DNA of 64,000 bases, from assembly GCF_032118995.1 (NCBI RefSeq), contig NC_092663.1, positions 1,426,001 to 1,490,000 on the forward strand, given 5' to 3'. The translations under genes were made by a program, and so were the position numbers. The notes beneath the pieces were generated by a model. The model was given only the letters and a program-made list of their open reading frames with translations. It ran no database searches and was not told the origin of the DNA. Shown piece by piece: positions 10,401 through 64,000 of the stretch (position 1 is its first letter; each line of letters opens with the position of its first letter). Source of the stretch: Asterias amurensis. Taxonomy: Eukaryota > Echinodermata > Asteroidea > Forcipulatida > Asteriidae.

Positions 10401-12671
10401 AAGGGATCACTGTCTTGAGACTAGACTTGAGTAAGTGTAAACACAAACTAGTCCTCATGACACCTGGGATGCTGTTATTGTAACAACACATCTCTCTGTG
10501 AATATACCAATAATAATAGTCTGCCTTGTGATATTTTCAGTTTTACCCAAATGTTATCAAATTGCTGTACTTGCCCCGCCCCTTGTGATTTAAAAAATAT
10601 ATATATATAACAAAAATGTAATCAAACTGCTGGACTTAGATCCCTACCCCTTGTGATTTTTTAAATTTTAAGCAAAAATAAAAAAAAAGAAACTGTTAGA
10701 CTTACCCCTTGGGATTTTTTCAATTTAAGGCCCAAATTTGATAAAACTGCTAGACTTTGCCCCTTGGGATTTTTTTCAATTTGGCCCAAATTTGATAAAA
10801 CTGCTGGACTTACCCCTTGTGAGTTTTTCAATTTAGGCGCAAGTTTGATAAAACTGCTATTAATTTTAGGCAAGGTCCAAACTGGCTTAAACTGCTAGAC
10901 ACCCCTTTGTGTTTTTTTTCCATTTTTAGATGCAAACTTATTTTGTCTTTTAAAATGTTTTTCTTTGTAGTGTTTGTCAGCCATCATCATGACGATGTCA
11001 GAGGTCACCAGTAACAAAGCTCAAAACGGTCTGAATGTGATGTAGGCCTATAACTAAAAAGGTAAACACATAATTCTTAACAATTGTTTGAAGGATGAGT
11101 ATGCAAATCAAATGGAACTAGCGCCCAGATTAAACTCATTTAGCTAAAGGCCAATCACCACCAACGCCATGCAATTGAAGCTTAAAATAACTACAATTGT
11201 TTTTTATTTCACATATTATAAAGTTTCTATCAACTATGACCAGAGACAATTTGGTACACCTTACTAAGTCAAAACTGAGTTAGTTTGAAGGTGACACAGA
11301 GTGTTGTACCAGCACACAATGTGTCATAAAAGTCAGGACTGATTAACAAACAATACACCATCCGAAAATCGGTCTGATATACAATAGTGGCTGCATTTCT
11401 GATAAAATTTTGACTTGGGGTGGGGGGGGGGTGTCTGTATCATCCCCCCCCCCCAATTATAACCTCTTTAGGTCAGTATTCCACCCAGGTTATCTTGCAC
11501 ATTTGAGGGATTGCCTTCAATATAATTGACCAATAAAACCTTGACTTGAGAAAATGAAAGACAGCAAAACATTCTTACACTTGGATTTGTTGTTGTCTTG
11601 TGAGAAATATGAGTAAGGCACCGACCATGAATCGCAGAACCCCCGCCGTTAGCCACAGCAGATAAATAATCTGCCAGGGAATAGTGTAGAAATCCCAGAC
11701 AGTGCTTTAATTTCCATTTAGCCAAATACCCAAATACAATGATAAACTATGGTGCAGCCTGCCTTGTCTGCCACGTTTGTATAATAATCGGACAATTAAA
11801 GTTAAGGCAAAAGGGGGATAAGGGGTGCATTATTTCTGCTATTAACTTTCCCTCATTTAATGGGTGAAAAGTGTATCACCACAGGGGCCTGCCACCACAC
11901 AGGTGGTTATTCACGTCACCATTAGCTTCTCTCCGCACCCAGTGGTAAATGAGTACCTGTGCGGGCAGAGTTGGTTCTTGTGATTGATTAACTTACATTA
12001 TTTGGCGACACAGACTAAACTTCTCAGGGAGCTGAGATGGTTTAAGGAATGATTTAAGGCCCTGTGAGCAGGGAGAATAATGTTGAATCGCCATGAGCGT
12101 CACTGCGTTACAGACCTGAGCGCTACAAGAAGCCACCATTATTGTTATTATTATATAAAGAGGTGGTCTAGATTACCTATGCAAGAAAAAAAATATTGGC
12201 TTATAACTACATAATTCTTACAAAATTTACCCAGTCAGTTTCCCTTGTGGTTTATATTGATATCTGAAACAAAAAGTTGCATCCCCTTAAGGTGATCCCC
12301 TAGCTGCCGCTTCCCAGGTTGTATCATAATTTGGGTGTGATCCCTGGCTACACGGCAGTTAACGGTTGTATGGCTTCTGACTGGCACCCCGAACAAAGAT
12401 ATTGACAGAATAGGGACACCGTCAATATAGGGCTAGATAGCTCAGTTGGTAGAGCGCCGGCACGTTAATCCGGAGGTCGTTGGTTCGAATCCCACTCTAG
12501 TCAATTCTTTGTTCAACCCCCAAAATAACTACAAATTTTTATCTGTTAACTTGTCCTTTCAGGGCCAGTAGTTCAAAGTACGAATGGAGTATCCCCTACC
12601 GACACCTTGAAGGCTGCATAAAAAGGAGATCAACTGCCTTGGAAAACATCAGTTTCATCAAGACATCCTAG
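7461..12671 (+). CDS. Candidate small multi-exon gene, unknown product (about 94 aa)
   Basis: I do not recognise this protein. Exon 1 (7461-7562) starts at an ATG in good context directly after the CRE promoter, encodes 34 residues beginning MDDGSTSCSNNFCADVF, and ends at ATG before GTAAGTTG. Exon 2 (9440-9513) follows TATTGCAG, stays in frame (GCTGELRFNCRESLHV) and ends before GTAAGTG in phase 2. A third exon after CTTTCAG (12563) continues in frame (EASSSKYEWSIPYRHLEG) to TAG at 12669-12671. The phases agree and each junction has consensus GT-AG. Against it: the product is short, has no known domain, and the exon candidates at 10357-10430, 10971-11061 and 13635 allow other joinings. It could be a non-coding transcript or an alternative 5' end of the DNAAF1 transcript. 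Confidence 0.3.
7690..9299. other. Intronic or intergenic sequence, no gene
   Basis: Non-coding on inspection. It holds a short direct repeat around CTTAGCATCAATATGC (8180-8265), a repeated CAAAATGCACTGAAAATATA (8753 and 8798), and CTCF-like words at 7967-7983, 9131-9146 and 9183-9199. Confidence 0.45.
9899..10269. mobile_element. TTAA-flanked MITE, family B (GGACACTATTGG), copy 1
   Basis: The ends GGACACTATTGGTTATTACT and ACCAATAGTGTCCAGTGTCT plus TTAA are inverse copies. Inner blocks (GTAATTTTCCACGAATTTGA, CATATGTTGAGATACACCAA) match copies at 44694-45001 and 57339-57587. Non-coding. Confidence 0.8.
10357..10430 (+). pseudogene. Decayed duplicate of candidate exon 2
   Basis: Same 74-bp length as 9440-9513, same TATTGCAG acceptor and GTAAGTG donor, and similar start (GGTTGTACTG). 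An in-frame TGA interrupts it in the frame used by the first copy, so it could be skipped or dead. Confidence 0.4.
10971..11061 (+). other. Exon-like segment with consensus splice sites
   Basis: A pyrimidine-rich acceptor (TTTTTCTTTGTAG) precedes TGTTTGTCAGCC, and AAAAAG/GTAAAC follows. Joined directly to exon 1 (7461-7562) it stays open for about 24 codons to a TAG; joined to exon 2 it stops after seven. It may be an alternative or untranslated exon. Confidence 0.25.
11062..12215. other. No gene seen
   Basis: Spacer sequence. The one oddity is a G-run followed by a C-run (11417-11452), which can pair into a hairpin or form a quadruplex. No coding frame is supported. Confidence 0.5.
12216..12520 (+). 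repeat. tRNA-derived SINE with an Asn-like tRNA part
   Basis: At 12433-12505 a near-complete tRNA cloverleaf can be drawn: GGCTAGA pairs with TCTAGTC, the D stem is GCTC/GAGC, the anticodon is GTT, and the T loop is TTCGAAT. Base 33 is not T and two stem pairs fail, so it is unlikely to be a working tRNA. The flanking body (TTTCCCTTGTGGTTTA, GAACAAAGATA) recurs at 40540-40745 and 41120-41235, marking a SINE. Confidence 0.7.
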
Positions 12672-20300: not shown

Positions 20301-23300
20301 AATGTAGGACTAACCGTTTCAAAAACAGTTGCATCCCCTCCCTAGTTGAGCTGCTCAATCACCAATAATTGTTCTGGCCTGTAGATAACTTGTTTTCATT
20401 GTGTAAATATTTGTATTGTACATGTACATACTTCAGTTTTTAAATTTTATATTCACATCTACTCTATTTTTATAATCTCGTAATAATTGTATATTTGCTG
20501 GTTTTTGATGTTTGAATGTATTTTTATATTGTAAACCTAAACACAATTCAGCCTTTTGGCTGCTACGTTTGTTTTTTAATAAACCAATAATAATAATAAT
20601 AATAAAAATAACAACTATCAACACAGGTAAACGACCCCTGTACACACTTATCGCAAGGAGAAGGGGTTCACCCCGGTGTGTCTGGCAGTTCGACTAGTGT
20701 TTCTGGTTCATGTGCTAAGCATTCTTGTTTACAGTTTTCCTAGGCTTCTGAGCTACAGTGATTAAGAGTAACTATAAATATGAATAGTAAACTTGCGGGT
20801 ACAACCATGTGTAAAAACTCTTTTGAGGGAGTGTTGGCTCTGAAAAGAACCGGTTTGGTCCCAACGTTTGGAACAGTATACTCTGCTTGTCGTCAGGAGA
20901 AACGTTGGTACCAAACCGGCTCTATCAGTGCCAACACTCCCTCAAAATAGTTTTTACACATGGTTGTACCCGTAAGTTTACTTGTCATATTTATAGTTAC
21001 TCTTATTCCCCACACCATGCAAAGCTTCAAACACCATTTACTTTAGTTCACTTTGCGGCCTCCTTGGTTTTATTACCAGAAATATATTATATTCATAAAG
21101 AACACTTAAATCTAATGTTCCTTTTAAATGTTTTTAGGAGACACCAAGGACCAGAAGAAGGTCTTCACAACGGAAGTATATGAAGAGGATGACATTGAGA
21201 CCATCGACCTCAGAGAAGAGAAGATTAATATTGATGTAAGTTAGATTTCAAGATGTGTGGATGTTGTCTTGAGACTTGTCACCACTCACCACCCCGCCAA
21301 ACTATCACCCCGAGACAAAATATCACCCGACAAGTTATCGCCCGCCGAGATACCGGCCACTAAAATATCACCCCAATACCCATGTCATTTCATTCAAACT
21401 CCTTCAACTGACATACATATCCCTCAACCAGCACCCCCCCCCCCCCCCCCTCCAAGAACTCCTTTTATACCAACCTCGTTATACCCTCCGTTCCACAGCT
21501 CTTTCATGATACCTGCCACAGACCTGGTCCCAATCTCATGGCTCTGCTTACCGCCGAATTCTGCGCTTTCAATCACCATTCTCTACTTACTGTAAAAGTG
21601 GTGAAGTTCTGTGCTAGCTTTGTTAGGTAAGCATGCAAAAATTCCCTGCTAAAATACGCTTGACAGAAGTGCGGAATTCCCAACTTCAGAAAAATGCTAA
21701 TCGAAGAAGTGACATTAGTCGAGCAACCAAGAGGAAAAATAATCATTGAAGAAATCAATCAATCCCTGAGCTCCACTAAGATTACCGACCAATCAAATTC
21801 ATCCTTACTGATGGATGATGAAGACCCCGACGACCAATCACATCCTTTGATTCAAGAAACCAACCCATCAAAGTCAGACTTAATGGACCAATCAGAAGAT
21901 GTGGAATCAATGACATCATCATCAGGAGCATCCAATAAGATTCCTTTGATTCAAGAAATATTTGAATCTAACAAGACGAAAGCCGAAGCACCGAGTCTCA
22001 TCGATGAGCTCAAGAAATTTGGAACCAGAATTCCAAACAGCTGGGAGGTCCTCGAGAACGAGAAGAAAAGAAAAGAGCAGGAAGAATCCGACAAAAGCAA
22101 AGGTACGATAAGTTTCATTTTTTTGTAGATTTTTTGTCTACTTGTTTCTTAAAGGCACTGCAGTTGATTTCACGAAACGCTTGGATTAATCCTATCTCGA
22201 GTTAGGACGTGTAACACGAAACGCTTGGATTAATCCTATCTCGAGTTAGGACGAGTAACACGAAACGCTTGGATTAATCCTATCTCGAGTTAGGACGAGT
22301 AACACGAAACGCTTGGATTAATCCTATCTCGAGTTAGGACGAGTAACATGAAACGCTTGGATTAATCCTATCTCGAGTTAGGACGAGTAACATGAAACGC
22401 TTGGATTAATCCTATCTCGAGTTAGGACGAGTAACACGAAACGCTTGGATTAATCCTATCTCGAGTTAGGACGAGTAACATGAAACGCTTGGATTAATCC
22501 TATCTCAAGTTAGGACGAGTAACATGAAACGCTTGGATTAATCCTATCTCGAGTTAGGACGAGTAACACGAAACGCTTGGATTAATCCTATCTCGAGTTA
22601 GGACGAGTAACATGAAACGCTTGGATTAATCCTATCTCAAGTTAGGACGAGTAACACGAAACGCTTGGATTAATCCTATCTCGAGTTAGGACGAGTAACA
22701 CGAAACGCTTGGATTAATCCTATCTCGAGTTAGGACGAGTAACATGAAACGCTTGGATTAATCCTATCTCAAGTTAGGACGAGTAACACGAAACGCTTGG
22801 ATTAATCCTATCTCGAGTTAGGACGAGTAACATGAAACGCTTGGATTAATCCTATCTCGAGTTAGGACGAGTAACACGAAACGCTTGGATTAATCCTATC
22901 TCAAGTTAGGACGAGTAACATGAAACGCTTGGATTAATCCTATCTCAAGTTAGGACGAGTAACATGAAACGCTTGGATTAATCCTATCTCGAGTTAGGAC
23001 GAGTAACACGAAACGCTTGGATTAATCCTATCTCGAGTTAGGACGAGTAACACGAAACGCTTGGATTAATCCTATCTCGAGTTAGGACGAGTAACACGAA
23101 ACGCTTGGATTAATCCTATCTCGAGTTAGGACGAGTAACACGAAACGCTTGGATTAATCCTATCTCGAGTTAGGACGAGTAACATGAAACGCTTGGATTA
23201 ATCCTATCTCGAGTTAGGACGAGTAACATGAAACGCTTGGATTAATCCTATCTCGAGTTAGGATGAGTAACACGAAACGCTTGGATTAATCCTATCTCGA

Positions 23301-24629
23301 GTTAGGACGAGTAACACGAAACGCTTGGATTAATCCTATCTCGAGTTAGGACGAGTAACACGAAACGCTTGGATTAATCCTATCTCGAGTTAGGACGAGT
23401 AACACGAAACGCTTGGATTAATCCTATCTCGAGTTAGGACGAGTAACATGAAACGCTTGGATTAATCCTATCTCAAGTTAGGACGAGTAACATGAAACGC
23501 TTGGATTAATCCTATCTCGAGTTAGGACGAGTAACATGAAACGCTTGGATTAATCCTATCTCAAGTTAGGACGAGTAACTCAGGAGTAACTTGTCCTAAC
23601 TTTGGATAGGTTCACTGCGTCCTATCGTCTATTGATGTGGAATGTAACTTGTCCTAAGTCCTAAGATTAATCCATAGTTAGGAAGAGTTTGGTGAAATCG
23701 GCGGCTGGCCACGTTCTGTAATTACTCAAAATATTGTAAGCATAGAAAGTTACCGAGCAATAGAGCTGTTGGCAGTATAAAACATTGTGAGAAAATACTC
23801 CCTCTGCAAGAAACATAATTTTTGAGAAAGAGGTTATTTCTCACTAAAATATTTGAATCTGAGAAAGGCTTTAGGCCTGATGCCTTTCTCAGTCACAGGA
23901 AAGCACATTTAAGTGGTCTTAGAAATAAAGATAAATGATAATGACATGATTTGAGTTGTCTTAAGGGAAGGTATATATTTGGTAGTTACTCTTAAAATTG
24001 ATGGCAATACAAACTTTTGGTTAGAAGCCTACGGCAGCTTTTGATAGTACAAAACATTTTGAGAAACACTTCAATAATGCGGTCATGTAAAAACAGTTTT
24101 TATGCCACAAAATGCGAACCATTACAGCAGTAACCCTTTTCAGACTGTGCATTCTTGTAAGATCATTTCCTCTTTCCGTGGACATATTCGCCCAGGTTTT
24201 TTGGAAATATCTCAAAAACGCTACCACCATTTGAAATTAAGTTTTCATAGGTTATTTTATTGAGTATACCGAAAAACAAAATACTTGCCCTTCAACACTA
24301 GCTTGTACAGGGGTCGATTTCACAAAGAGTTAGGACTAGTCCTAACTTAGGACTAGTCCTAGAAGATATACAAATTGCATGGATAGTCCTAAGTTAGGAA
24401 GAGTAACTGGTCCTAACTCGAGATAAGACTAGTCCTAACTCTTTGTGAAATCCACCCCAGGAGTGTCAAACGATAATACATTATATTGTGAACTCGCTTG
24501 ATTTACTTGTGTTCCTTAAATTTTAATTTTTATTCTTGTTTTCCAGCAGAGAAGACCACCGAGGAGAAGATATGGGAGCTAGCGGCAAACGCTGGATCAA
24601 CCTTAGATCGACCTGATCCTCCACAGTGA
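16218..24629 (+). CDS. DNAAF1: Dynein axonemal assembly factor 1 (LRRC50), 3' eight exons
   Basis: DNAAF1 is a cytoplasmic leucine-rich-repeat protein needed to preassemble axonemal dynein arms in motile cilia. Exons with consensus junctions and matching phases: 16218-16384, 17442-17516, 18601-18665, 18971-19056, 19586-19777, 21138-21235, 21667-22102 and 24547-24629 (TGA at 24627). In order they encode the last repeats ([30 protein letters not shown]), the cap (RVLNLMGN), the diagnostic [20 protein letters not shown], a charged coiled-coil-like stretch ([22 protein letters not shown]) and an acidic low-complexity tail ending [18 protein letters not shown]. The first repeats and the start codon are not visible upstream, so the gene is partial here or its 5' exons lie beyond position 1. 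The fourth exon's end and donor are duplicated in frame (19017-19154), and the last acceptor is a NAGNAG pair (CAGCAG at 24544-24549). Confidence 0.9.
16390..16705 (+). mobile_element. LINE 3' tail fragment in DNAAF1 intron
   Basis: Encodes a decayed LINE ORF2 C-terminus ([17 protein letters not shown]) and ends with an (ATT)n tail near 16680-16700. It begins only a few bases after the splice donor at 16385. Confidence 0.75.
16868..17430 (+). mobile_element. LINE 3' fragment flanked by duplicated intron sequence
   Basis: From about 16970 to 17222 a frame encodes a LINE C-terminus ([42 protein letters not shown]), then a short 3' region and an (ATT)n tail (17284-17316). Segments of about 105 bp on either side (16868-16972 and 17325-17430, both with GGTGCTACTGCAAAC and GCAAAGTTTCAAACCCTAC) are near-copies, far longer than a normal target duplication. 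A related segment lies at 39220-39370. Confidence 0.75.
17560..17748 (-). repeat. SINE with Leu(CAA)-like tRNA head
   Basis: Read on the minus strand: a box A-like start near 17740, anticodon-loop word ACTCAAG, a class II variable arm (TCTGTAATTTACAGA) and box B GGGTTCGAATCC. The acceptor ends do not pair, and a SINE-like body continues to about 17560. Confidence 0.6.
17774..17965. mobile_element. MITE, family C (TAAAGCC ends), copy 2
   Basis: TAAAGCCTGGTTCATACTTC at the left and GTAGTATGAACTGGGCTTT at the right are inverse copies. Same family as 12726-12904. Confidence 0.8.
17992..18143. mobile_element. Palindromic MITE, family D (ACTAGTCCTAA), copy 1
   Basis: GATTTCACAAAGAGTTA and TAACTCTTTGTGAAATCCAC are inverse ends; inside, GGACTAGTCCTAA words repeat in both orientations. 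A second copy lies at 24310-24459. Confidence 0.8.
18215..18386. mobile_element. Palindromic MITE related to family D
   Basis: CAGCTGTTGATTTCAC and GTTTCATGAAATCAGCTG are inverse ends. The inside holds TAGGATTATTCTTAGGACT against AAGATAGGATTAATCCTAG. Its right half resembles the unit of the array at 22171-23580. Confidence 0.65.
19017..19154 (+). repeat. 69-bp tandem duplication of an exon end plus splice donor in DNAAF1
   Basis: The segment starting ATTAACAACGAAAGAGC at 19017, covering the last 40 bp of the fourth visible exon, its GTAAGG donor and following intron, is repeated at 19086 with four or so changes. Both donors (19057 and 19126) are intact and the 69-bp offset is a multiple of three with no stop between. 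Use of the second donor would add 23 residues. Confidence 0.85.
19862..20690 (+). repeat. tRNA-derived SINE split by a LINE insertion
   Basis: The head (GTGGCCGAAATGTTAAGAGC with box B-like GTGGGTTCAGG) and body (GTGACACGTGTGTC, CTTCGGATGGGAC) run to about 20025. The rest of the body (ACACTTATCGCAAGGAGAAG, GGGTTCACCCCGGTGTG) resumes at about 20628. The gap is filled by the LINE fragment at 20027-20610. Confidence 0.75.
20027..20610 (+). mobile_element. LINE 3' fragment, same family as 49733-52188
   Basis: Encodes [20 protein letters not shown], then [20 protein letters not shown] and RNNNLRNS, the same C-terminal blocks as the larger element. It ends with AATAAACC and an (AAT)n tail (20588-20604). 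It is 5' truncated and lies inside a SINE. Confidence 0.8.
20757..21025. mobile_element. Foldback element with about 115-bp arms
   Basis: The left arm (GTAAACTTGCGGGTACAACC, TTTTGAGGGAGTGTTGGCTC) is inversely repeated by the right arm (GTGCCAACACTCCCTC, GGTTGTACCCGTAAGTTTAC). A half copy lies at 18815-18920. Confidence 0.75.
22161..23702. repeat. 44-bp minisatellite (about 32 units) inside a family D-like MITE
   Basis: The array at about 22171-23580 has an exact 44-bp period; unit words are CGAAACGCTTGGATTAATCC, TATCTCGAGTTAGGACGAG and TAACA. The outer ends, TTGATTTCACGAAACG at the left and TTTGGTGAAATCG at the right, are inverse copies, and the right flank (GTCCTAAGTCCTAAGATTAATCC) is the opposite arm. 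One arm of an MITE was thus amplified. Nearly all differences between units are CG to TG or CG to CA. It sits in the last DNAAF1 intron. Confidence 0.9.
23715..24245. repeat. Remnants of TTAA MITE family B
   Basis: TAATTACTCAAAATATTGTA, AGTATAAAACATTGTGAGAA and a second weaker set (23985-24090) match inner blocks of family B. The ends are decayed. Confidence 0.5.
24310..24459. mobile_element. Palindromic MITE, family D, copy 2
   Basis: GATTTCACAAAGAGTTAGGA and TCCTAACTCTTTGTGAAATC are inverse ends. Closely similar to 17992-18143, about 80 bp before the last DNAAF1 exon. Confidence 0.85.
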
Positions 24630-26129: not shown

Positions 26130-26612
26130 TAGTGGTTAGACTGCATTCAGGACTTGCTTTCCACAAGGTTATGGGTTCGAATCCTACTAAGCTAACTGTA
26201 GTTCAGTGGTAGGACTGCAGGACTTGCAATCACAAGGTTGTAGGTTTGAATCCTACCAAGCTAACCTTGGTCCAGTGGTTAGACTGCAGGACTTGCAATC
26301 ACAAGGATGTGGGTTCCAATCCTACCAAGCTAACCATGGCCCAGTGGTTGGAATGCAGGACTTGCAATCACAAGGTTGTAGGTTCGAATCCTACCAAGCT
26401 AACCGTGGCCCAGTGGTTGGAATGCAGGACTTGCAATCACAAGGTTGTAGGTTCGAATCCTACCAAGCTAACTGTGGTTCAGTGGTTAGACTGCAGGACT
26501 TGCAATCACAAGGTTGTAGGTTCAAATCCTACCAAGCTAACTGTTGTTCACTGGTAATACTGGAGGAGTTGCAATCACATGGTTCTGGGTTCGAATCCTA
26601 CCAAGCTAAATG
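26130..26612 (+). repeat. Tandem array of seven tRNA-like units (about 64 bp each)
   Basis: Each unit carries a box A-like TGGCCCAGTGGTTGGAATGC, the word GGACTTGCAATCACAAGG and a T-arm with box B (GTAGGTTCGAATCCTACC), then AAGCTAAC joining the next unit. The T-arm pairs perfectly, but the anticodon arm is short and there is no acceptor stem. A related fragment lies at 39640-39700. Confidence 0.85.
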
Positions 26613-27922: not shown

Positions 27923-28067
27923 ATTTATATTAAGGCAAAACTGCAAGGCTTAATCTTGATAGATTTTGAGTAAAAACAAAAATCAAGGTTCATCCTTGTG
28001 TTCAAAGCCTTGCAGGTTTTGACCGAAATTCAAATTAATGGTAAGTCTTGCAATTTCTACGAAAACA
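27923..28067 (+). repeat. Left arm of a distant inverted repeat
   Basis: AGATTTTGAGTAAAAA, CCTTGTGTTCAAAGCCTTGC and TTTTGACCGAAATTCAAAT are found in reverse complement at 34395-34555, 6.3 kb away. Confidence 0.65.
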
Positions 28068-28074
28068 AAGTTAG

Positions 28075-28860
28075 CCTGGAATAAATCAAATTTTGGAACA
28101 ATAGGATGGGTCTTATTCATTTTAATCCTGATTTTAAACGTCGTTATAGCCATCGGAGACGACTAAAACCAAGATTTTCTTGCTCCTCGTCCTAATAAGA
28201 TGGGTCTCAAATATTAATTTGAGTCCTGATTTTAAACCGTCGTACTATCCGAATTAAGTCATTATCTCAAAAAGTAGCCATCAGAGACGACTAAAACCAA
28301 GATTTTCTTGCTCCTCGCCCTCTATTACACCTAGGTATGAAATTTCAGGCGATTTGGAAAACAAAAATATCGGCCGATTTTTGAAAAAACGACAAGGGGG
28401 TAGGGTAAGCTTGACGTTTTTTCACCCTCGGAAATCTTTTCTCTCCGATTTGCTTCAAAATTTAACCGAAGGAAGTTCTTCATGTGTAAAAGACAGTCTG
28501 CAAGTTACAGGTTGCTGGAACACTAGGATGGGTCTCAAATATTCATTTTAATCTGGATTTTAAACCGTCGTACTATCCGAATTAAGGCATTATCTCAAAA
28601 AGTAGCCATCGTAGACGACTAAAACCAAGATTTCCTTGCTCCTCGCCCTCTATTACACCTATATGTGTAATTTCAGGCGATTTGGAAAACAAAAATTTCG
28701 GCCGATTTTTGAAAAAACGACAAGGGGGTAAGCTTGACGTTTTTTCAACCTCGGAAACCTTTTCGCTTCGATTTGCTTCAAAATTTAACCAAAGGAAGTT
28801 CTTCATGTGTAAAAGACAGTCTCCAAGTTGCAGGTTGCTGGAACAATAGGATGGGTCTAA
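28075..28860. repeat. Tandem repeat of about 325 bp (two full units plus a part)
   Basis: Units start near GGATGGGTCTCAAAT (28197 and 28528) and share TTTTAAACCGTCGTACTATC, GACGACTAAAACCAAGAT, AGGCGATTTGGAAAACAAAA and AACCAAAGGAAGTTCTTCAT. Related fragments occur at 33090-33300 and 34555-34700, so this is also an interspersed family. Confidence 0.8.
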
Positions 28861-29939
28861 GTTATTAATTTTAATCTCTCTTTTGAGACACTCCTTTATC
28901 TATCAAGAGGTAACCAAGATATTGGGACAAGAAAACGGATAGTCGGGTACCCTATAGTTGGTCTTATACCAATGCTTCGTACCCAGCAATATGCCGCGTA
29001 CACGTGTTTTCGAAATGGTCTCCAAGCATGCAGTTGACACTGGCTGTCTCCGTGGACGATATTTAGAGCATTTCGACGTGATTTTAATCTACAGGGAACT
29101 GTTCAGGCAAGACTAATGTATACTTGTTTATTCTGATTCAATAATAAGTCTTCAAATCCTCTAAGAATACTGGAATTAGCAATGTCGATGATTTATGTTT
29201 CTATTAGCTATCATCACTACGTTTATACTAGAATTTTGTTTTCCAAATCGCCTGAAATTTCACATAAATTATAATGGTATGCTTTGTATGGTCGTCGTTA
29301 TATCCGAACTAACACGTTGGGCGATGGTGCGTTAATATCGCTCCCTATAATTCTGTCATTTAGTAAAGGTTGTTGTTTTCTCGTTGGTTATTCAGGGATT
29401 TCTCTTATTTTATTTAACTAATCACTGCAGACGTGTACATGTATATAGCCTATTTTACATCCATGTTTCGGTAATATTGTTAACGTTTGTATTATTTACA
29501 CAATCACACAATTATATACACTCGACGTTTTAACTATTGTAATGATTTAAATAAAATTGTGTACCCGCTGTTATCGCTGCTTAAATTTGTACGAGTCAAT
29601 TTGTCTGTTTTATTTGTCTGTAGAAACTCGAGTATTAAACACTAAATAACAAAATACATAAAGAAGAATCCGTGCAGTGCCTTACAGTCAATTACTTAGA
29701 TTATCAAGAAAATTCTGAATTTGTTACATAATTAAAATAAAGTATTGTTTTGTTGACCACATAACGCCCTCAGCTTGGATATGCCCCCGCTCGATTTTCA
29801 CCACTTTTAGATACTTTTTTTCAATCGCTGATATTTTTATCAGTTAAATATTCTCGTTTAAGTCCCGTGCATTTTATTTATCCCAAACACAGTCGAATTA
29901 ATGTGCATGCTTCAACTCTGTTGTACCCAGTCCAAATCT
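28861..29939. other. No gene seen
   Basis: AT-rich spacer. AGTCGGGTACCC (28937) recurs as AGTCGGGTACC at 34020. No coding frame is supported. Confidence 0.45.
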
Positions 29940-31460
29940 TTACATTACCTGGGGTACTATGGCATCGGGAAATCCTTGTAAAACACGCGAGTGGAAGGCA
30001 CTAGCTATAATACGTTTGGATTTAAAGTTTTCCACTCTACGGTTTATATTTAAACTCGAACCCATTGTTCGTAAGAAGAGCGGTGGCCCAGTGGTAGAGC
30101 TCCGGATTCTGAACGCAAAGGTACTGGGTTCGAGCCCCGGTGTGTGCCTTTTTCTACGCGTAAAGAACATTGGTTTAAGCGGAACCCTATGGCATAGGGA
30201 AATCCTTGCTTTATACCTAATAAATAACATGCGAGTGGAAGGCATAAGCTACAATACTTTTTGATCTAAAGTTGTTCACTCTAAGGTTTATAATTAAACT
30301 CGAACCCATTTTAATCAAGAAGTACTGTGGCCCAGTGGTAGGGCTCTGGATTCTGAAGGTAACGGTGCTGCGTTCGAACCCTGGAGTGTGTTCTTTTTCT
30401 GCTTTTAAGAACATTGGTTTGCGCGGTTCCCTATGGCATAGGGAAATCCTTGCTTTACACTTGGTAAATAATTTGCGAGTGGGAGGCATAAGCTAAAATA
30501 AGTTTTGATTTAAAGTTGTTCATTCTAAGGTATAGCATTAAACTCGAACGCAACCGAAGTAAGAGTAGTAGTGGCCCAATGGAAGGGCTCCGGACTCTAC
30601 ATCCAATGGTACGGGGTTCGAATCCCGATCTGTGTTCTTTTTCTACGCTTGGGAACATTTGTTTGCGCGGTTCCCTATGGCATAGGGAAATCCTTGCTTT
30701 ACACTTAGTAAATAATTTGCGAGTTGGAGGCATAAGCTATAATACGTTTTGATTTAAAGTTGTTCATTCTAAGGTATAGCATTAAACTCGAACGCAAATT
30801 AAGTAAGAGGAGACGTGGCTCAATGGAAGGGCTCCCGACTCTACACCCAATGGTACGGAGTTCGATTCCCGGGTGTTCTTTTTACTACGTTTTGATTTAA
30901 AGTTGTTCATTCTTAGGTATAACATTAAACTTGAACGCAAATGAAGTAAGAGGAGACGTGGCCCAATGGAAGGGCTCCGGACTCTACACCCAATGGTACG
31001 GAGTTCGAATCCCGGGTGTTCTTTTTACTACGTTTTGATTTAAAGTTGTTCATTCTTAGGTATAACATTAAACTCAAACGCAAATTGAGTAAGAGGAGAC
31101 GTGGCCCAATGGAAGGGCTCCGGACTCTACACCCAAAGGTACGGAGTTCGACACCCGAGAGTTCTTTTACTACGTTTTAATTAAAAGTTTGTCATACGAA
31201 GGTTTAAAATTAAACTCGAACGCACTTTAGTAAGAAGGACCAGTGGCCCAGTGGAAGGGCTCCGGACTCTACACCCAAAGGTACGGGGTTCGAATCCAGG
31301 GTGTTCTTTTACAAAGTTTTGATTTAAAATTGTCCATACGAAGGTTTAAAATTAAACTCGAACGCATTTAGGTAAGAAGGACCAGTGGCCCAGTGGAAGG
31401 GCTCTGGTCTGAGGACCGAAAGGTCTCGGGATCGAATCCCGCTACAGAAAAGTTCTAGAC
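29940..31460 (+). repeat. Tandem array of eight tRNA-like pol III units
   Basis: tRNA-like parts begin at about 30082, 30325, 30569, 30813, 30955, 31098, 31239 and 31383: period about 244 bp for the first units, then about 142 bp. Each has box A (GTGGCCCAGTGGTAGAGC or close), an anticodon-arm region resembling tRNA-Gln (CCGGATTCTGAA, later CCGGACTCTACA) and box B (GGGTTCGAGCCCC type). Seven are followed within about 15 bp by a T4-T5 run (30149, 30394, 30638, 30879, 31022, 31165, 31307), the usual pol III stop. A conserved upstream block (TTAAAGTTGTTCATTCTAAG, ATTAAACTCGAACGCAA) precedes each. Acceptor stems do not pair, so these are not ordinary tRNA genes. The last unit lacks the T-run. Confidence 0.85.
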
Positions 31461-31544
31461 GTTTTAAAAATATTTTTTAAATGAAAAAAATGAAATCTAT
31501 ATAAAAAAGGGCATAGGTTCGTTTTAAGTTTTAAGTTTAAAGTT

Positions 31545-31700
31545 TCTTTCCTCAGCGAGTGCTAGCGGTGAGTGCCACTGCGCGGTGGGTGCCACTGTCT
31601 GGTGGGTCGAGACTTCTCGGTCGGCAACCGCGCTGCCACCACCGGGGTTCGAACCGGTGACCCTTCGCTTCGGAGGCCGACACCCACCTACGACACCCAC
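31545..31700 (-). repeat. tRNA-derived SINE-like unit, minus strand
   Basis: On the minus strand: box A-like AGGTGGGTGTCGGCC, anticodon region CTCCGAAG and box B GGTTCGAACCCCGG, followed by a GC-rich body. It is unlike the units of the neighbouring array and probably an independent insertion. Confidence 0.6.
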
Positions 31701-31764
31701 TTGGGTCCCCCCCAGGATACCTTCGCATTTTTGACCTGATAAACCTTCGGTTCATACTTTACAT

Positions 31765-32600
31765 AGAAAGCTATGGCATGGGATTTCAGTGCTTTACACT
31801 TACTATATAATTTGTGAGTTGAATACTTTTGATAGGATACTATGGCATGGGATTTCAGTGCTTTACACTTAGTATATAATTTGTGAGTTGAATACTTTTC
31901 ATAGGATACTATGGCATGGGATTTCAGTGCTTTATACTTAGTATATAATTTGTGAGTTGAATACTTTTCATAGGATACTATGGTATGGGAATATCAATGC
32001 TTTTTACTTGGTATATAATTTATACTTAGTAAGTATATAATTTGCCAGTGGAAAACCTTACACACGATGCTATGGCATAGTAAAATCAGTACTTTATACT
32101 TCGTAATTTACGAGTGGCCTACGCTGTTGGCATGGTTGTAGGAAACATAGGCATATGGAGGACTCATTGGTTCGGACTTAGAAAATATTTGAGTTGAAGG
32201 AACACGCTGTAGGTATGGACCATTTACTTATAAAACATAGTCATATGGGGAACTCTTTGGTTCGGACTTAGAAAATATTTTAGTTGAGGGAACACGCTGT
32301 AGGCATAAGTATAGACAATTTAGTTTAATTGGGAAGCCCGGGTTCGCATGGTACTATGGCATAAGGAAATCCTTGCTTTATACTTAGTAAATAATCTGCG
32401 AGTCAAAGCAAAGGCATATGCATTACTTAGGAGTAGGTATATGGGTAGACAGGGGGACTTAAAAATATAATGTGATCGGAAGGCATACATTGTAAGTATA
32501 GGCACACAATAATTACCAGGAAACATAGGCATACAGTGGACTCTACTGTTCGAACTTAGAAAGTATTAGAGTTGAATACACACGCCGTGGGTTTGGAAAA
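31765..32600 (+). repeat. Tandem and dispersed copies of the non-tRNA part of the array
   Basis: About four units of 64 bp (31770-32030) carry CTATGGCATGGGATTTCAGT, GCTTTACACTTAGTATATAA and TTTGTGAGTTGAATAC. The same words (CTATGGCATAGGGAAATCCT) separate the tRNA-like units upstream. Further decayed copies and a duplicated GGAACACGCTGTAGG block (32200, 32287) follow. Confidence 0.75.
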
Positions 32601-32844
32601 TTAGTTCACGGGGGAAACGGTATTGTTGTGAATTATCGGTTTGACATTATGGGAATTGGGGATTGTCGCTGGGGGAGGGTGGCGGGGTTTTGGGGGAGGG
32701 TGACGGGGTTTAGGGTTGGGTGTAGGCTAGCTGGGATCAACATGACGGCGGGAATAAAAGCGTTGATTTCCACCAGTGTTTTGGTGAGTACTCGCCGCTG
32801 TGCCGTAGTATTTGTTTTACAGTGTGTACAACTTGAGACACCGT

Positions 32845-33085
32845 TATAAATAAATAATAGTAAATAAAACCAGCTCTTTTATAACGCAATTCCAAAACAA
32901 AATTCAACGCACTTTTATACACACAAAAACAATAGCAAATATAATACACTAGAATAAATAAGTTTTGAGGTTGCGTTTGAAAGCTAAAACTGTTGGAGAG
33001 GATATTTTGGTAGTGTGGTAATTTGTTCCAGAGAGTAGGCCCGAAAACACTGAACGATCGAAAACCATGCAATATCTCAAACATT
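32845..33085 (-). mobile_element. LINE 3' fragment, minus strand
   Basis: The minus-strand frame reads FRSFSVFGPTLWNKLP then a short 3' region ending in an AT-rich tail, the usual C-terminal signature of CR1/L2-like ORF2. Confidence 0.65.
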
Positions 33086-33089
33086 TCTA

Positions 33090-33300
33090 AAAGAGGGACC
33101 ACGATTTGTCTGTTCCTTGCACTCCATTACACATCTGTGTGAAATTTCAGGCGATTTTGAAAAAATGTTCTTTTCTCCGGCTGATTTTGTGAAAAAACGA
33201 CGTTTTTTAACACTCAAAGACCCTTTCTCTCCAATTTGCCTCAAAGTTTAACCAAAGGAAGTTCTGTATGTGTAAAAGACGGTCTCCAAGTGGTGGCGCC
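33090..33300. repeat. Fragment of the 28.1-kb repeat family
   Basis: Shares AATTTCAGGCGATTTTGAAA, CCGGCTGATTTTG and AACCAAAGGAAGTTC with 28195-28850. Confidence 0.65.
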
Positions 33301-33443
33301 ATACGGAAAGTTTGAATGGATAACTTTCCGTATGGCGCCACCACTTTTTCACTCATTTTTACAAAAAGGGATATATCAATCAGGTAAATAAGTTCCTATA
33401 TTATTTCATATCGAATGAAAAAGTGGTGGCGCCATACGGAAAC
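33288..33443. repeat. GGTGGCGCCATACGGAAA hairpin with a third copy
   Basis: AGTGGTGGCGCCATACGGAA (33287-33306) and TTCCGTATGGCGCCACCACT (33326-33345) form a near-perfect 23-bp stem with an 8-base loop. A third copy follows at 33421-33441 in the first orientation. Confidence 0.8.
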
Positions 33444-34394
33444 TTTTCCAAAATTCATTCTAATTTTTATTTTGCAGCATCGTTATCAAAAACTAGACCA
33501 AAAAATTCTCAAAAAGTTGCCAAGGTAGACATTTTTAGAACCATGTAGGCTGCTGGCCGACACATTTCTCTAAGATACAACTATCCACGAATTGAAGTAG
33601 AAATATAATCTGAAAACTAAGCTACACAGAAAAGTCTATTGTTTCATTTGACTGACGGCAAGTTGCCATTGACGATGCAATGACCTATATGCTCCAACGT
33701 TACAGCTACTTCCGGATTGCCGTTGTTTATTTTGAGCATGAAAGTGGAATAAAAATGCGACAAGAATTGCCCGTTTTATGACAAACTAGGTGTTTACACG
33801 TCTTCCACGAGGCATATTCCTATTCTACATTACGAACTTAAACAAACTACATGGTAAAGCTTACCCATACAGACATTAAATCACATCAAATCATCGTAAG
33901 TATATCCACGGTATTGACAACTTAGCAAGCATGGCTGGTGGCCATTTTGAATCTCGCGTCACGGCATCAAGCCGCTGAGTACCCAGACCTCTACTGTATG
34001 TGTATCCGCTGTTAAGCGGTAGTCGGGTACCTGTCGGTTGCTTTGGCTGGTTCCAATCACCGGTGCATGTCCAAGATCACAGGGGGTACGTAACTGGCTC
34101 CCGCAAGATCTCGCGGAAATAAACAGAACTGCGAGAATCGAAGGCTTGAATCGTATTTAGCGCAACGATTAAATAACTAAAGGTATATGGTGTCTGTTTT
34201 GTGTTCATTTATCAACTTATTAGTTTTAGGAGTAAATAACTTGTATATTATTCAAAATGTGACATTATTTTTCTGTTGAAATTTTCTCAGCCAAATTTGT
34301 GTCACGAAATAATCGAACTGTTAAAGAATTCGGTACACTTCACAAGCCCCCTTCCAAAAAAAACCAAAAAAACAATGTGGTCAGTATGTTGCCC
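33444..34394. other. No gene seen; moderately GC-rich around 33.9-34.15 kb
   Basis: Two TCTCGCG words (33952 and 34110) and ACTTCCGG (33707) could mark a CpG-type promoter, but no exon is convincing nearby. Confidence 0.35.
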
Positions 34395-34555
34395 TTTATT
34401 GTGTTAGAAAAATGCAAGGCTTACTTTTTTTAGTAGAAAATGTAAGGCTTACCATTTGAATTTTGGTCAAAAACTGCAAGGCTTTGAACACAAGGGTAGG
34501 CATAAACATTGCAATTTCTTTTTTACTCAAAATCTAAAGAAATAAGCCTTGGAGG
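34395..34555 (-). repeat. Right arm of the distant inverted repeat
   Basis: Reverse complement of the arm at 27923-28067, with GCAAGGCTTTGAACACAAGG and ACTCAAAATCTAAAG. Confidence 0.65.
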
Positions 34556-41879: not shown

Positions 41880-43175
41880 TAACCTGAATCTTCAGACAAC
41901 ATTTCTTTTGAGTTTGTTGTAGGAACCCAAAACAAAAGGTTTCTGGGGAACCCCAAGAACAATCTACAAACCAAGTTTGAAGTTGATATGCCAAGTTTTT
42001 CTTTAGTTATCGCTCGAACGAAATTTCTTTTGTTTTAGCCATAATGACCTTTGAATTTGTTGAGGGTTCTAAAAAAAATAGACCTCTTGAGGAGTCGGTA
42101 TGCCAAGCTCTTGAGTTTTGCTCAGACCACTTTTTTTTTTTTTTTTTAGCCTTGACGACCTTTGAACTGAATTGTTGTAGGGGTTCAAAAACAATAGGCT
42201 TCTGGGGATCCCTAGACTAATCCATGAACCAAGTTTGGAGGTGATATGCCAAGTTTTACTTGAGTTATTGCTCAGACAACATTTCTTTTGTTTTAGTCAT
42301 AAAGACCTTTGAACTGCATTGTTGTAGGGGTTCAAAAACAATAGGCTTCTGGGGATCCCTAGACTAATCCATGAACCAAATTTGGAGTTGATATGCCTAG
42401 TTTTACTTGAGTTATTGCTCAGACAACATTTCTTTTGTTTTAGTCATGACGACCTTTGGACGGAATTGTTGTAAGTGTCCAAAAACAATATGCTTCTGGG
42501 GATCCCTAGACCAATACATGAACCAAGTTTGGAGTTGATATGCCAAGTTTTACTTGAGTTATTGCTCAGACAACATTTCTTTTGTTTTAGTCATGACGAC
42601 CTTTGTACGGAATTGTTGTAGGGGTTCAAAAACAATAGGCTTCTGGGGATCCCTAGACCAATCCATGAACCAAGTTTGGAGGTGATATGCCAAGTTTTAC
42701 TTGAGTTATTGCTCAGACAACATTTCTTTTGTTTTAGTCATAAAGACCTTTGAACTGAATTGTTGTAGGGGTTCAAAAACAATAGGCTTCTGGGGATCCC
42801 TAGACTAATCCATGAACCAAGTTTAGAGGTGATATGCCAAGTTTTACTGGAGTTATTGCTCAGACAACATTTCTTTTGTTTTAGTCATGACGACCTTTGG
42901 ACGGAATTGTTGTAGGCATCCTAAAAAATAGGCTTCTGGGGATCCCTAGACTAATCCATGAACCAAGTTTGGAGGTGATATGCCAAGTTTTACTTGAGTT
43001 ATTGCTCAGACAACATTTCTTTTGTTTTAGTCATAAAGACCTTTGAACTGAATTGTTGTAGGGGTTCAAAAACAATAGGCTTCTGGGGATCCCTAGACTA
43101 ATCCGTGAACCAAGTTTGGAGGTGATATGCCAAGTCCTTTTTGAGCTATCACTCGGACAACGAATCTGCACTTGC
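41880..43175. repeat. 148-bp satellite, about nine units
   Basis: Units share CAAGTTTGGAGGTGATATGC, CAGACAACATTTCTTTTGTT, TGTTGTAGGGGTTCAAAAAC and GGCTTCTGGGGATCCCTAGA, at spacings of 146-148 bp (for example 42179, 42327, 42475, 42623, 42769). The first two units are the most diverged. Short minus-strand frames are by-products. Confidence 0.9.
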
Positions 43176-52682: not shown

Positions 52683-54273
52683 ATGATCACCGCAAGGCAC
52701 CGTGCGTTCATCGCAGCCTGCGCCGTCGTTTTGTTCTCAATTACGGCTTTGTTTCTGCTTCTTCATCGCAACCACCGTTACCTCACTGAGTTCGTTCGCC
52801 CGTTTCGTTACCGTCAAATCTTAGCAGAACAACAAGAGGTAAGCCTATGTACAATAGGAAATAAATTCTCAAACATTATTTTGTTGTTTTCACTTTGCAA
52901 TTATCCCAATCCTCTATAGGGTTGTCTTTGTATGTTTGTTGAAAACTATAACAAGATGCTTCTAATGTATGCTTGTTAAATTTGCATCGGGGATAAATAA
53001 TATTAGCTTTTGGATTTACTCACACATCGATGTATGTTATCACTGTATACTCAGAACTTTCCCGAGTCCTGTGAAAAAATATCACAGGCATACTCGGTGG
53101 GAATTACTTCTTTTTCGAGAAATATGTTACTTCAGAGGGAGCTGTTTCTCACAATGATTTATACTATCAACCTCTCCCCATTACTGGTTACCAAGAAAGG
53201 TTTTATGATAGTAATTATTTTGAGTAATTACCAATATTGTCCACTGCCTTTAAATGCAAGGCTCCGGTCCGGGAATCGAACCGGGTCCACAGAAGTGCAG
53301 GCCTGGACAAAAAACACTGAGAGCCAAATGCCAATTCAAACTATTGTTTTCTAAAACACAGATACCAACGCCACCAGTCATCAACACTGATGAAGCAACT
53401 TTTACACTGACTCCTACTACCGTGGGACTTGAAGATAGCATGTCCAAGGAACAAGAACGCCGACAGCGAAGGCTGGCGGCAGAATGTCGGCATCTTAACG
53501 TGTCAGAACCAACAAACAACGACCTCACACACTTAATCGTCAACGATGATCATAAAATCATCTTCAACTTCATTCCTAAGGTGTCCTGCACGACGTGGAA
53601 GAAAATCTGGGGTACACTTCACAAACGTAACAATACTGGGAAATCGTCACTGCAATATTACAATAGAGAAGAGCAGAACGACCGGTTGGAAAACTATCGC
53701 AAAGTGTTGTTTGTACGAGAACCGATGAGTAGGTTGCTCTCAGCGTACATGAGTAAATTTCGCGGTGGGGTGTTGTATGAGCACGGGCCCCTCCAACGGA
53801 TATGGGAGAGGTCTTTCGGTAGGGACATTGTCAAGCGTTACCGAGGTGTTGAAGTCATTGAAGATGGGAAATGGTTAAATATTACACTAACTGAATTTAT
53901 CCAATACATTACTGATCTTGGAAGTGGCATCAGACTCACTGCATTAAACGACCATTGGATGCCACAGTATAAAGTTTCACGGCCTTGTCACATTAAATAC
54001 GATTTCATCGGCCATTTTGAAAATCTTGAAGTTGAAGGTCCATTCGTACTGCGATGGTTAGGGGTTGACCACATCGTCCAGTTCCCAGAATATAAAAGCC
54101 CAAACGCAATAACACATTTTGTGGATTATTACAAATTGATATCTTTGGATTTGATGCGGAAACTGACAGAGTATTACCGTGAGGATTATAAGTTATTTGG
54201 ATATTCGCCCGATGACGTCATGAGTCGCGTTTTAAGGGGTGTATTTGCCGAGGACAACGCTCCTATCCAATGA
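52683..54273 (+). CDS. Golgi carbohydrate sulfotransferase, copy A (CHST8-14-like)
   Basis: Transfers sulfate from PAPS to a glycan in the Golgi lumen (family knowledge: Sulfotransfer_2, chondroitin/dermatan 4-O- and HNK-1 sulfotransferases). Two exons: 52683-52838 (52 codons, donor GTAAGC) and 53362-54273 (acceptor AACACAG, stop TGA), joined in phase 0 for 355 residues, usual for the family. Residues about 8-28 (AFIAACAVVLFSITALFLLL) form an uncleaved signal anchor. The 5' PAPS-binding loop is IPKVSCTTWKK (about 123-133) and the 3' loop VREPMSRLLSAY (170-181); a further family block is CHIKYDFIGHFENLE from 261. Potential N-glycosylation sites include NVS (98) and NIT (225). The acceptor substrate cannot be told. 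An untranslated exon probably lies upstream, since TTTTTTTAG precedes the start codon by 9 bp. Confidence 0.9.
53022..53253 (-). repeat. SINE tail and family B MITE inside the sulfotransferase intron
   Basis: 53022-53098 matches, in reverse, the body of the SINE at 45556-45715 (CACATCGATG, TATACTCAGAACTTTCCCG). 53100-53253 is the inverse of the left half of MITE family B, ending CCACTGCCTTTAA. Confidence 0.7.
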
Positions 54274-62612: not shown

Positions 62613-64000
62613 ATGATCACCGCAAGGCACCGTGGGTTCATCGCAGCCTGCGCCGTCGTTTTGTTCTCAATTACGGCGTTGTTTATGCTTCTTCATCGCA
62701 ACCACCGTTACCTCACTGAGTTCGTTCGCCCGTTTCGTTACCGTCAAATCTTAGCAGAACAACAAGAGGTAAGCCTATGTACAATAGAAAATAAATTCTC
62801 AACCATTATTTTGTTGTTTTCAATTCACTTTGCAATAATCCCAATCCTCTATAGGGCTGTCTTTGTATGTTTGTTGAAAACTATAACAAGATGCTTCTAA
62901 TGTATGCTTGTTAAATTTGCATCGGGGATAAATAATTATTAGCTTTTGGATTTACTCACACATCGATGTATGTTATCACTGTGTACTCAGAACTTTCTCG
63001 AGTCCTGTGAAAAAATATCACAGGCATACTCGGGTGGGAATTACTTCTTTTTCGAGAAATATGTTACTTCAGAGGGAGCTGTTTCTCACAATGATTTATA
63101 CTATCAACCTCTCCCCATTACTGGTTACCAAGAAAGGTTTTATGATAGTAATTATTTTGAGTAATCACCAATATTGTCCACTGCCTTTAAATGCAAGGCT
63201 CCGGTCCGGGAATCGAACCGGGTCCACAGAAGTGCAGGCCTGGACAAAAAACACCGAGAGCCAAATGCCAATTCAAACTACTGTTTTCTAAAACACAGAT
63301 ACCAACGCCACCAGTCATCAACACTGATGAAGCAACTTTGACACTGACTCCTACTACCGTGGGACTTGAAGATAGCATGTCCAAGGAACAAGAACGCCGA
63401 CAGCGAAGGCTGGCGGCAGAATGTCGGCATCTTAACGTGTCAGAACCAACAAACAACGACCTCACACACTTAATCGTCAACGATGATCATAAAATCATCT
63501 TCAACTTCATTCCTAAGGTGTCCTGCAAGACGTGGAAGAAAATCTGGGGTACACTTCACCAACGTAACAATACTGGGAAGTTGTCACTGCAATATTACAA
63601 TAGAGAAGAGCAGAACGACCGGTTGGAAAACTATCGCAAAGTGTTGTTTGTACGAGAACCGATGAGTAGGTTGCTCTCAGCGTACATGAGTAAATTTCGC
63701 GGTGGGGTGTTGTATGAGCACGGGCCCCTCCAACGGATATGGGAGAGGTCTTTCGGTAGGGACATTGTCAAGCGTTACCGAGGTGTTGAAGTAATTGAAG
63801 ATGGGAAATGGTTAAATATTACACTAACTGAATTTATCCAATACATTACTGATCTTGGAAGTGGCATCAGACTCACTGCATTTAACGACCATTGGATGCC
63901 ACAGTATAAAGTTTCACGGCCTTGTCACATTAAATACGATTTCATCGGCCATTTTGAAAATCTTGAAGTTGAAGGTCCATTCGTACTGCGATGGTTAGGG
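62613..64000 (+). CDS. Golgi carbohydrate sulfotransferase, copy B (partial at window end)
   Basis: Paralogue of 52683-54273. Exon 1 is 62613-62768, and exon 2 runs from 63299 to the window end (234 codons seen) with no indel or stop. It keeps the signal anchor, the 3' PAPS loop VREPMSRLLSAY and CHIKYDFIGHF. By eye it differs from copy A at about ten coding positions, seven of them changing the residue: A8G, L25M, F to L in EATFTL, T129K, K to Q in LHKRN, S to L in TGKSS, and L to F in LTALNDHW. T129K changes the 5' PAPS loop from IPKVSCTTWKK to IPKVSCKTWKK, where the family normally has C-T-x-W. It may therefore have reduced or altered activity. Confidence 0.88.
62958..63190 (-). repeat. SINE tail and family B MITE in the copy B intron
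   Basis: Duplicate of 53022-53253, so both insertions predate the segmental duplication. Confidence 0.75.

Follow-up and report, generated by a model that had tools for sequence, protein, structure and literature searches.

The tandem array of tRNA-like units at positions 29940-31460 of the analysed Asterias amurensis DNA constitutes a genuine and well-formed tandem family of the pol III type; its kind, that of PolIII/TAN, is already known. The analysed stretch, in the following referred to as the window, is 64 kb long and corresponds to C16:1426001-1490000; the genome searched comprises 491.5 Mb on 23 contigs. Judged from its sequence, this family is probably tRNA-derived, has kept its promoter and not its RNA fold, and has spread together with a module of about 6 kb.

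A first-pass annotation of the window had proposed eight tandem units within this range, seven of them provided with box A, box B and a T4-T5 run, along with a conserved upstream block and a period falling along the array, all of which is borne out. Eight units are present on the forward strand, both boxes occur in 8/8 of them, an own T-run in 7/8, and the upstream block (TTAAACTCGAAC or near variants) in 8/8. With box A defined as TRGYNNARY and box B, 44 nt apart from it, as GWTCRANNC, a pattern search for TRGYNNARY-N35-GWTCRANNC yields exactly eight matches in the 64-kb window, every one of them in the array, compared to 0.04 expected from 100 dinucleotide shuffles, none of which reached eight. 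Units 1 to 3 extend over 30008-30162 (boxes 30084-30136, T5 at 30149-30153), 30252-30406 (boxes 30328-30380) and 30496-30650 (boxes 30572-30624), units 4 and 5 over 30740-30882 (boxes 30816-30868) and 30883-31025 (boxes 30959-31011), units 6 and 7 over 31026-31168 (boxes 31102-31154) and 31168-31310 (boxes 31244-31296). Box B is followed by T5 in units 1-5 and by T4 in units 6-7, while unit 8 (31310-31452, boxes 31386-31438), a distinct “last” unit, has no T4 within 20 nt of its box B. Successive units are spaced by 244, 244, 244, 143, 143, 142 and 142 bp, so that the period drops from 244 to about 142 bp along the array.

The further statement that the body sits mostly upstream of the tRNA-like part needs correction. 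This body is a second repeat and not a SINE body, since the 244-bp form consists of a 143-bp unit (B) plus a segment of about 101 bp (A) which contains a relative of a 69-bp tandem repeat. Segment A is found on the forward strand at 30163-30251 as well as at about 30407-30495 and 30651-30739, and tandem-repeat analysis reveals an array of this segment type alone downstream at 31754-32021. The order in the window is accordingly (AB)n, then (B)m whose final B is special, then a convergent tRNA-like stretch, and finally (A)k.

Conservation was assessed on 20 fetched stretches and the window, which provided 211 matches, reduced to 200 units by dropping 11 with a coverage of 85% or less. Box A is present in 192 of these units, box B in 194 and both in 186. 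In 181 of the 186 two-box units the boxes are spaced by 44 nt, in 160 a T4 follows within 20 nt, and in none of them does a T4 lie between the boxes. With up to 35 nt allowed from the box B core, a T4 is found in 199/200 units, some of these runs belonging to the next unit. Random placement of an equal number of changes leaves both boxes intact in 34 ± 5 of 200 units (45 in the highest of 200 runs) versus 185 of the same aligned rows, a comparison which does not amount to a formal test because the null ignores shared descent. Within box B, the invariant letters G, T, C, A and C are conserved to 98-100%, W is T in 165 and A in 35 units, and the two N positions vary; the R column of box A holds G in 103, A in 96 and T in one unit. 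Read against what we take to be the TFIIIC consensus, the changes within the boxes fall mostly on columns which this consensus leaves degenerate. Constraint is not limited to the boxes (92 and 87% conserved), as columns 1-30 and 42-57 are about equally conserved (89 and 93%).

The description of the units as built like small pol III genes thus fits, with the upstream block, the boxes at fixed spacing and the T-run kept in most of the 200 units. From their sequence, the units appear to have the layout of type 2 pol III genes, with boxes at tRNA-like spacing and at least four T residues after box B. Each unit of about 143 bp comprises an A/T-rich upstream block, which presumably sits at about the position of TFIIIB, followed by box A, by box B 44 nt further on and usually by a T-run 10-13 nt later. 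Given this order, TFIIIC and TFIIIB would be expected to place pol III on each unit, leading to an RNA of about 75-80 nt. We infer from these signals that the units may be transcribed by pol III and may have a function.

A function as tRNA genes is rejected as no unit clears the cut-off of Rfam or ARAGORN. ARAGORN (bacterial setting) calls a tRNA gene in 0/8 units; in the Rfam tRNA search, unit 8 scores 21.2 bits and unit 3 18.7 bits, both below the cut-off of 29, and the other six units give no match up to an E value of 5. Pairing across the 200 units amounts to 94% for the D stem, 69% for the T stem, 57% for the acceptor stem and 40% for the anticodon stem, the D stem being the only one of the four to beat slid controls. 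RNAalifold, applied to 60 of 152 distinct unit RNAs, yields a z-score of -0.2 versus column shuffles. With only the D stem well kept and this z-score, there is no visible conservation of the fold of the unit RNA. The feature that has been kept would be the pol III promoter rather than the RNA fold.

The first-pass annotation had alternatively considered an amplified SINE head and had suggested a genome-wide check of the upstream block. This check points away from a dispersed element. The genome contains 151 occurrences of the pattern TTAAACTCGAACSCA and two of the reversed pattern, and of the 100 copies listed (on C2, C4 and C10) 99 lie within array coordinates, the remaining one, C10:5215342, about 3 kb from an array. 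Inspection by eye found the upstream block in none of 23 tRNA-family copies, several of which are probably repeats and not tRNA genes. The box-A word has 144 exact places in the genome (100/100 of those listed are in arrays), and the tRNA-like part alone, used as a query, gave 40/40 reported matches in arrays (40 of 240 candidates scored), so that the SINE head is not supported as part of a living SINE. Among the genome matches listed or scored there is neither a dispersed copy with a SINE body and tail, diverged copies escaping such lists, nor a parent SINE, and an extinct SINE is perhaps the ancestor of the unit. The publication of the A. amurensis assembly gives 14,926 tRNA predictions and has no instance of the word SINE in its main text (PMC10625585).

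The array belongs to a module of about 6 kb, copies of which are present at no fewer than 27 loci on five contigs (C10 13, C2 6, C16 5, C4 2, C14 1; each a lower bound), with arrays within about 10 kb of each other counted as one locus. The total is a lower bound because the genome searches scored 33 of 76, 40 of 61 and 40 of 52 candidates. In the window the module extends approximately from 28150 to 34490, its right edge being soft (34157-34490). Its upstream side harbours a tandem repeat of about 323 bp (28194-28877) whose genome matches lie at array loci, apart from those at C2:27.36 and 28.81 Mb, for which the searches reported no array, and part of a conserved downstream block (33567-34157) is found in 21/21 stretches. 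Beyond about 28.15-34.5 kb the other stretches (5-10 kb each) are mostly unlike the window, with a depth of about 1/20, and scattered other repeats outside the module edges reach a match depth of up to 4.7. Across the window and the 20 stretches fetched, long spacings (about 230-250 bp) mostly lead and short ones (about 142 bp) trail, but L013, L014, L023, L025 and L028 show a mixed order and L026 has short spacings only. Six of the 27 loci are outward-facing inverted pairs (C10 at 2.78 and 3.94, C16 at 0.60 and 1.89, C2 at 20.17 and 20.47 Mb). The closest copy, at C10:744-763 kb, shares its flanks with the window over at least 18 kb, long pieces of window positions 21.7-39.8 kb being 88-98% identical. 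The array would have spread as part of the module, in at least one case via duplication of a chromosome segment, and we infer that segmental duplication may be the general route of this spread.

Several candidate components of the module were discarded. A 140-bp inverted repeat at the module edges (27941-28077 and 34417-34554) is absent from most copies. A reverse transcriptase as part of the element was rejected with Pfam RVT_1 found in just 3/21 stretches. These fragments (L010 5662-6186, L011 689-1294, L012 4766-5428), which we take from their motifs to be Penelope-like, border on the module, in each of the three stretches at an identical point. The window also carries tandem sulfotransferase genes (Pfam Sulfotransfer_2) at 53254-54273 and 63191-64000, with three close copies on C16; as a co-duplicated neighbour they were dismissed, their close copies (98-100%) being confined to that contig. 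Three ORFs within the module of the window have no Pfam match, nor does a frame of L027 which covers the conserved block and contains a kinase-like string. Besides frames inside the arrays and the reverse transcriptase fragment, ORFs of at least 130 amino acids are few in the fetched stretches. L018 contains, in the interval from the 323-bp repeats to the array, a match to the histone 3' stem-loop (2187-2233) which scores 34.3 compared to the Rfam cut-off of 34. The window further harbours tandem arrays at 22171-23579 (44 bp x 32) and 42110-43135 (147 bp x 7).

Behind the array, the reverse strand carries a convergent tRNA-like stretch (31503-31735) whose box B lies at 31655-31646 and which has a T6 run, visible as A6 at 31503-31508 on the forward strand. 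An opposite-strand match beyond the array is present in 21/21 stretches (20 fetched ones and the window), and all 21 aligned copies end in T5-T6. The box B pattern is matched in 19/21, the distance between box B and the T-run being 122-158 nt where both are present; box A is poor as judged by eye. The 60 bp beside the T6 run are 95% conserved, the spacer before it 83%, while the fold (z-score -1.1) is not conserved. A pol II reading of TATATAAAAAAG with a TATA box and splice-like sites was abandoned as the TATA letters vary between copies. Since the A-run of 5-6 A is kept in 21/21 while these letters vary, we judge it to be the T6 of a reverse-strand unit. The stretch possibly represents a further pol III gene with a predicted RNA of about 230 nt, so that a second pol III-like unit, convergent to the array and ending in T6, would lie behind it. 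Distant relatives (76-80%) of its tRNA-like part are found at C9:2.14 and 2.88 Mb and at C10:16.70, 17.08 and 17.35 Mb; they do not cover its conserved 3' part.

The units of 22 arrays were assigned to position classes (88 first, second, next-to-last or last units and 110 middle ones), where one array split by a locus border counts twice, rendering two class labels artificial. First units are nearest to the same-position unit of another array in 17/22 cases, second and last units in 15/22 each, whereas 41/110 middle units have their nearest unit within the array they belong to. Among the 88 units, box A and box B are each present in 87. Both boxes plus a T4 within 20 nt are found in 21/22 first, 21/22 second, 96/110 middle, 20/22 next-to-last and 2/22 last units. 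The last units possess both boxes in 22/22 cases and the best-conserved boxes at all (97 and 98%), while a near T-run is missing in 20/22, a combination as compatible with the binding of factors as with transcription. The end units would have been positionally fixed, with unequal exchange as the probable cause of turnover among the middle units.

On C2 and C6 the 143-bp unit is also the monomer of a satellite, as it forms long homogenised arrays there. The one at C2:21.68-21.75 Mb is about 64-72 kb long (start between 21,678,301 and 21,681,501, end between 21,745,300 and 21,750,000) and changes strand at least twice; further large arrays lie at C2 21.86, 22.06, 22.20, 22.45 and 22.61 Mb and C6 19.56 Mb (35 of 137 candidates scored). 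As a guess, these arrays at C2:21.68-22.61 Mb and C6:19.56 Mb are possibly pericentromeric. A variant box-A word has 444 exact places, the 100 listed all being on C2. In 63 large-array units from three stretches, box A is present in 60, strict box B in 27, both in 25 and a T4 soon after in 58, with columns conserved to 93-98% by segment. Here the unit would have grown into homogenised satellite arrays with decaying box B. The long homogenised arrays that define satellite DNA are found on C2 and C6, whereas the module arrays are short.

The best reading, in our view, is that in this tandem family of PolIII/TAN type the pol III promoters are, or long were, under selection, as their sequence suggests. 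It is conceivable, though rather doubtful, that the arrays are an inert satellite instead, i.e. a tRNA-derived fragment, perhaps from an extinct SINE, which was multiplied by unequal exchange and whose boxes survive simply because the copies are young and homogenised. The large arrays on C2 and C6 and the middle units resembling their own neighbours speak in favour of this, as do the SINE-derived satellites known in reptiles (PMC10702118). Yet units in first, second and last position mostly resemble those in the same position of other arrays and not their neighbours, and nevertheless keep their boxes, the changes within the boxes obey the TFIIIC consensus, and it is precisely the true satellite form which loses box B. 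Unlikely, too, is that the arrays are landing sites of TFIIIC with a role in chromatin (boundary, loop anchor or condensin loading) and merely incidental transcription, in the manner of the clustered B-boxes in the IR elements of fission yeast. The kept promoter without a kept fold, the conserved boxes of the last unit lacking a near T-run and the outward-facing inverted pairs would suit such sites, and in a reporter the yeast IR-L element is a weaker boundary once its five B-boxes are deleted (PMC4502379). In addition, the loci are spaced more regularly than chance would give, with distances of 0.22-0.70 Mb between the 13 loci on C10 (CV 0.38, P=0.0003 versus uniform), 0.26-0.34 Mb between five on C2 (P=0.0013) and 0.39-0.69 Mb between five on C16 (P=0.022). 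This test, however, is post hoc, the clusters having been chosen after being seen and C2:28.13 Mb, C4 and C14 being left out, and box A and, in most units, the T-run are kept as well, neither of which is needed for TFIIIC binding alone.

A bolder version of this idea, to which we assign quite a small probability, is that the modules act as evenly spaced TFIIIC/pol III stations on parts of chromosomes 10, 16, 2 and 4, some as outward-facing pairs and most numerous beside the candidate sex-determining region, which would organise the chromosomes there, the promoter and not the RNA being selected. The candidate sex-determining region spans 7-12 Mb of chromosome 10 (PMC11757944). The C10 array loci lie at 0.75-6.3 Mb and hence outside it, provided that C10 is the published chromosome 10, as we assume from the numbering and the same 491.53-Mb reference; their closeness to this region may be chance. 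Finally, the array could be part of a mobile element, either as a fold-back element whose inverted arms are long or through linkage to a retroelement. Outward-facing pairs with 323-bp repeats between the arms and the RVT_1 fragment beyond the module in three stretches are reminiscent of such an origin. We nonetheless consider it very improbable, as reverse transcriptase occurs in only 3/21 stretches searched, the right ends of the 21 stretches share no common terminus, the inverted repeat at the module edge of the window is absent from most copies and the homology of the closest pair extends over at least 18 kb.

Several known systems are close to the array. Like PolIII/TAN (Hirt, from the newt Cynops), OAX (Xenopus), Rana/polIII (green frogs) and Hy/polIII (Hydromantes), it is a tandem repeat with a tRNA-like or pol III segment (PMC10702118), and the head-to-tail arrangement with a tRNA-like promoter which characterises PolIII/TAN-type repeats is found here. 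For PolIII/TAN, transcription in vitro has been reported, and for several of the amphibian families no matching SINE is known, according to the same source, which also records little sign of what keeps these repeats (PMC10702118). The amphibian units measure about 200, 250 or 360 nt or more (PMC10702118) in contrast to 143 bp in the sea star, whose units differ, moreover, in mostly having their own T-run, in forming short arrays within a conserved multi-copy module and in that their conservation was measured box by box. The squamate sSats resemble the sea-star arrays in their short units, in the separate treatment of first and last monomers and in a unit similarity that increases with array length; they have, however, a parent SINE in the same genome (PMC10702118), while none is among the sea-star matches listed or scored. 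The fission-yeast IR boundary elements likewise comprise B-box clusters in inverted repeats (PMC4502379), whereas the sea-star units, characterised at sequence level, also keep box A and mostly T-runs. With tRNA-derived SINEs the units share a tRNA-like part with boxes A and B (PMC10702118), but dispersed copies with body and tail are missing among the sea-star matches listed.

Unusual features are the conserved module, the outward-facing pairs, the convergent second pol III-like unit and the even spacing of 0.2-0.7 Mb. No earlier report of such arrays in a sea star was found in the titles and abstract openings of the open-licence literature searched. About 200 units in a chromosome-level genome render the conservation of boxes A and B measurable column by column, the large arrays with their decaying copies of the same 143-bp unit provide a built-in contrast, and the modules offer a concrete animal site for asking if pol III promoter arrays have a part in shaping chromosomes.

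Other tRNA-like sequences are present in the window. At 26148-26609 lies a second tRNA-like tandem array with a 69-bp period, 6.7 copies and no spacer, one stretch of which passes the Rfam tRNA search with 31.1 bits; similar sequence is found in L010 and, by translation, in L018. At 12431-12503 there is a tRNA-Asn match of 56.4 bits whose upstream region of about 40-60 bp is common to many of the tRNA-family matches sampled on other contigs (L042-L055), for which reason it is probably a dispersed repeat that includes sequence upstream of the tRNA part.
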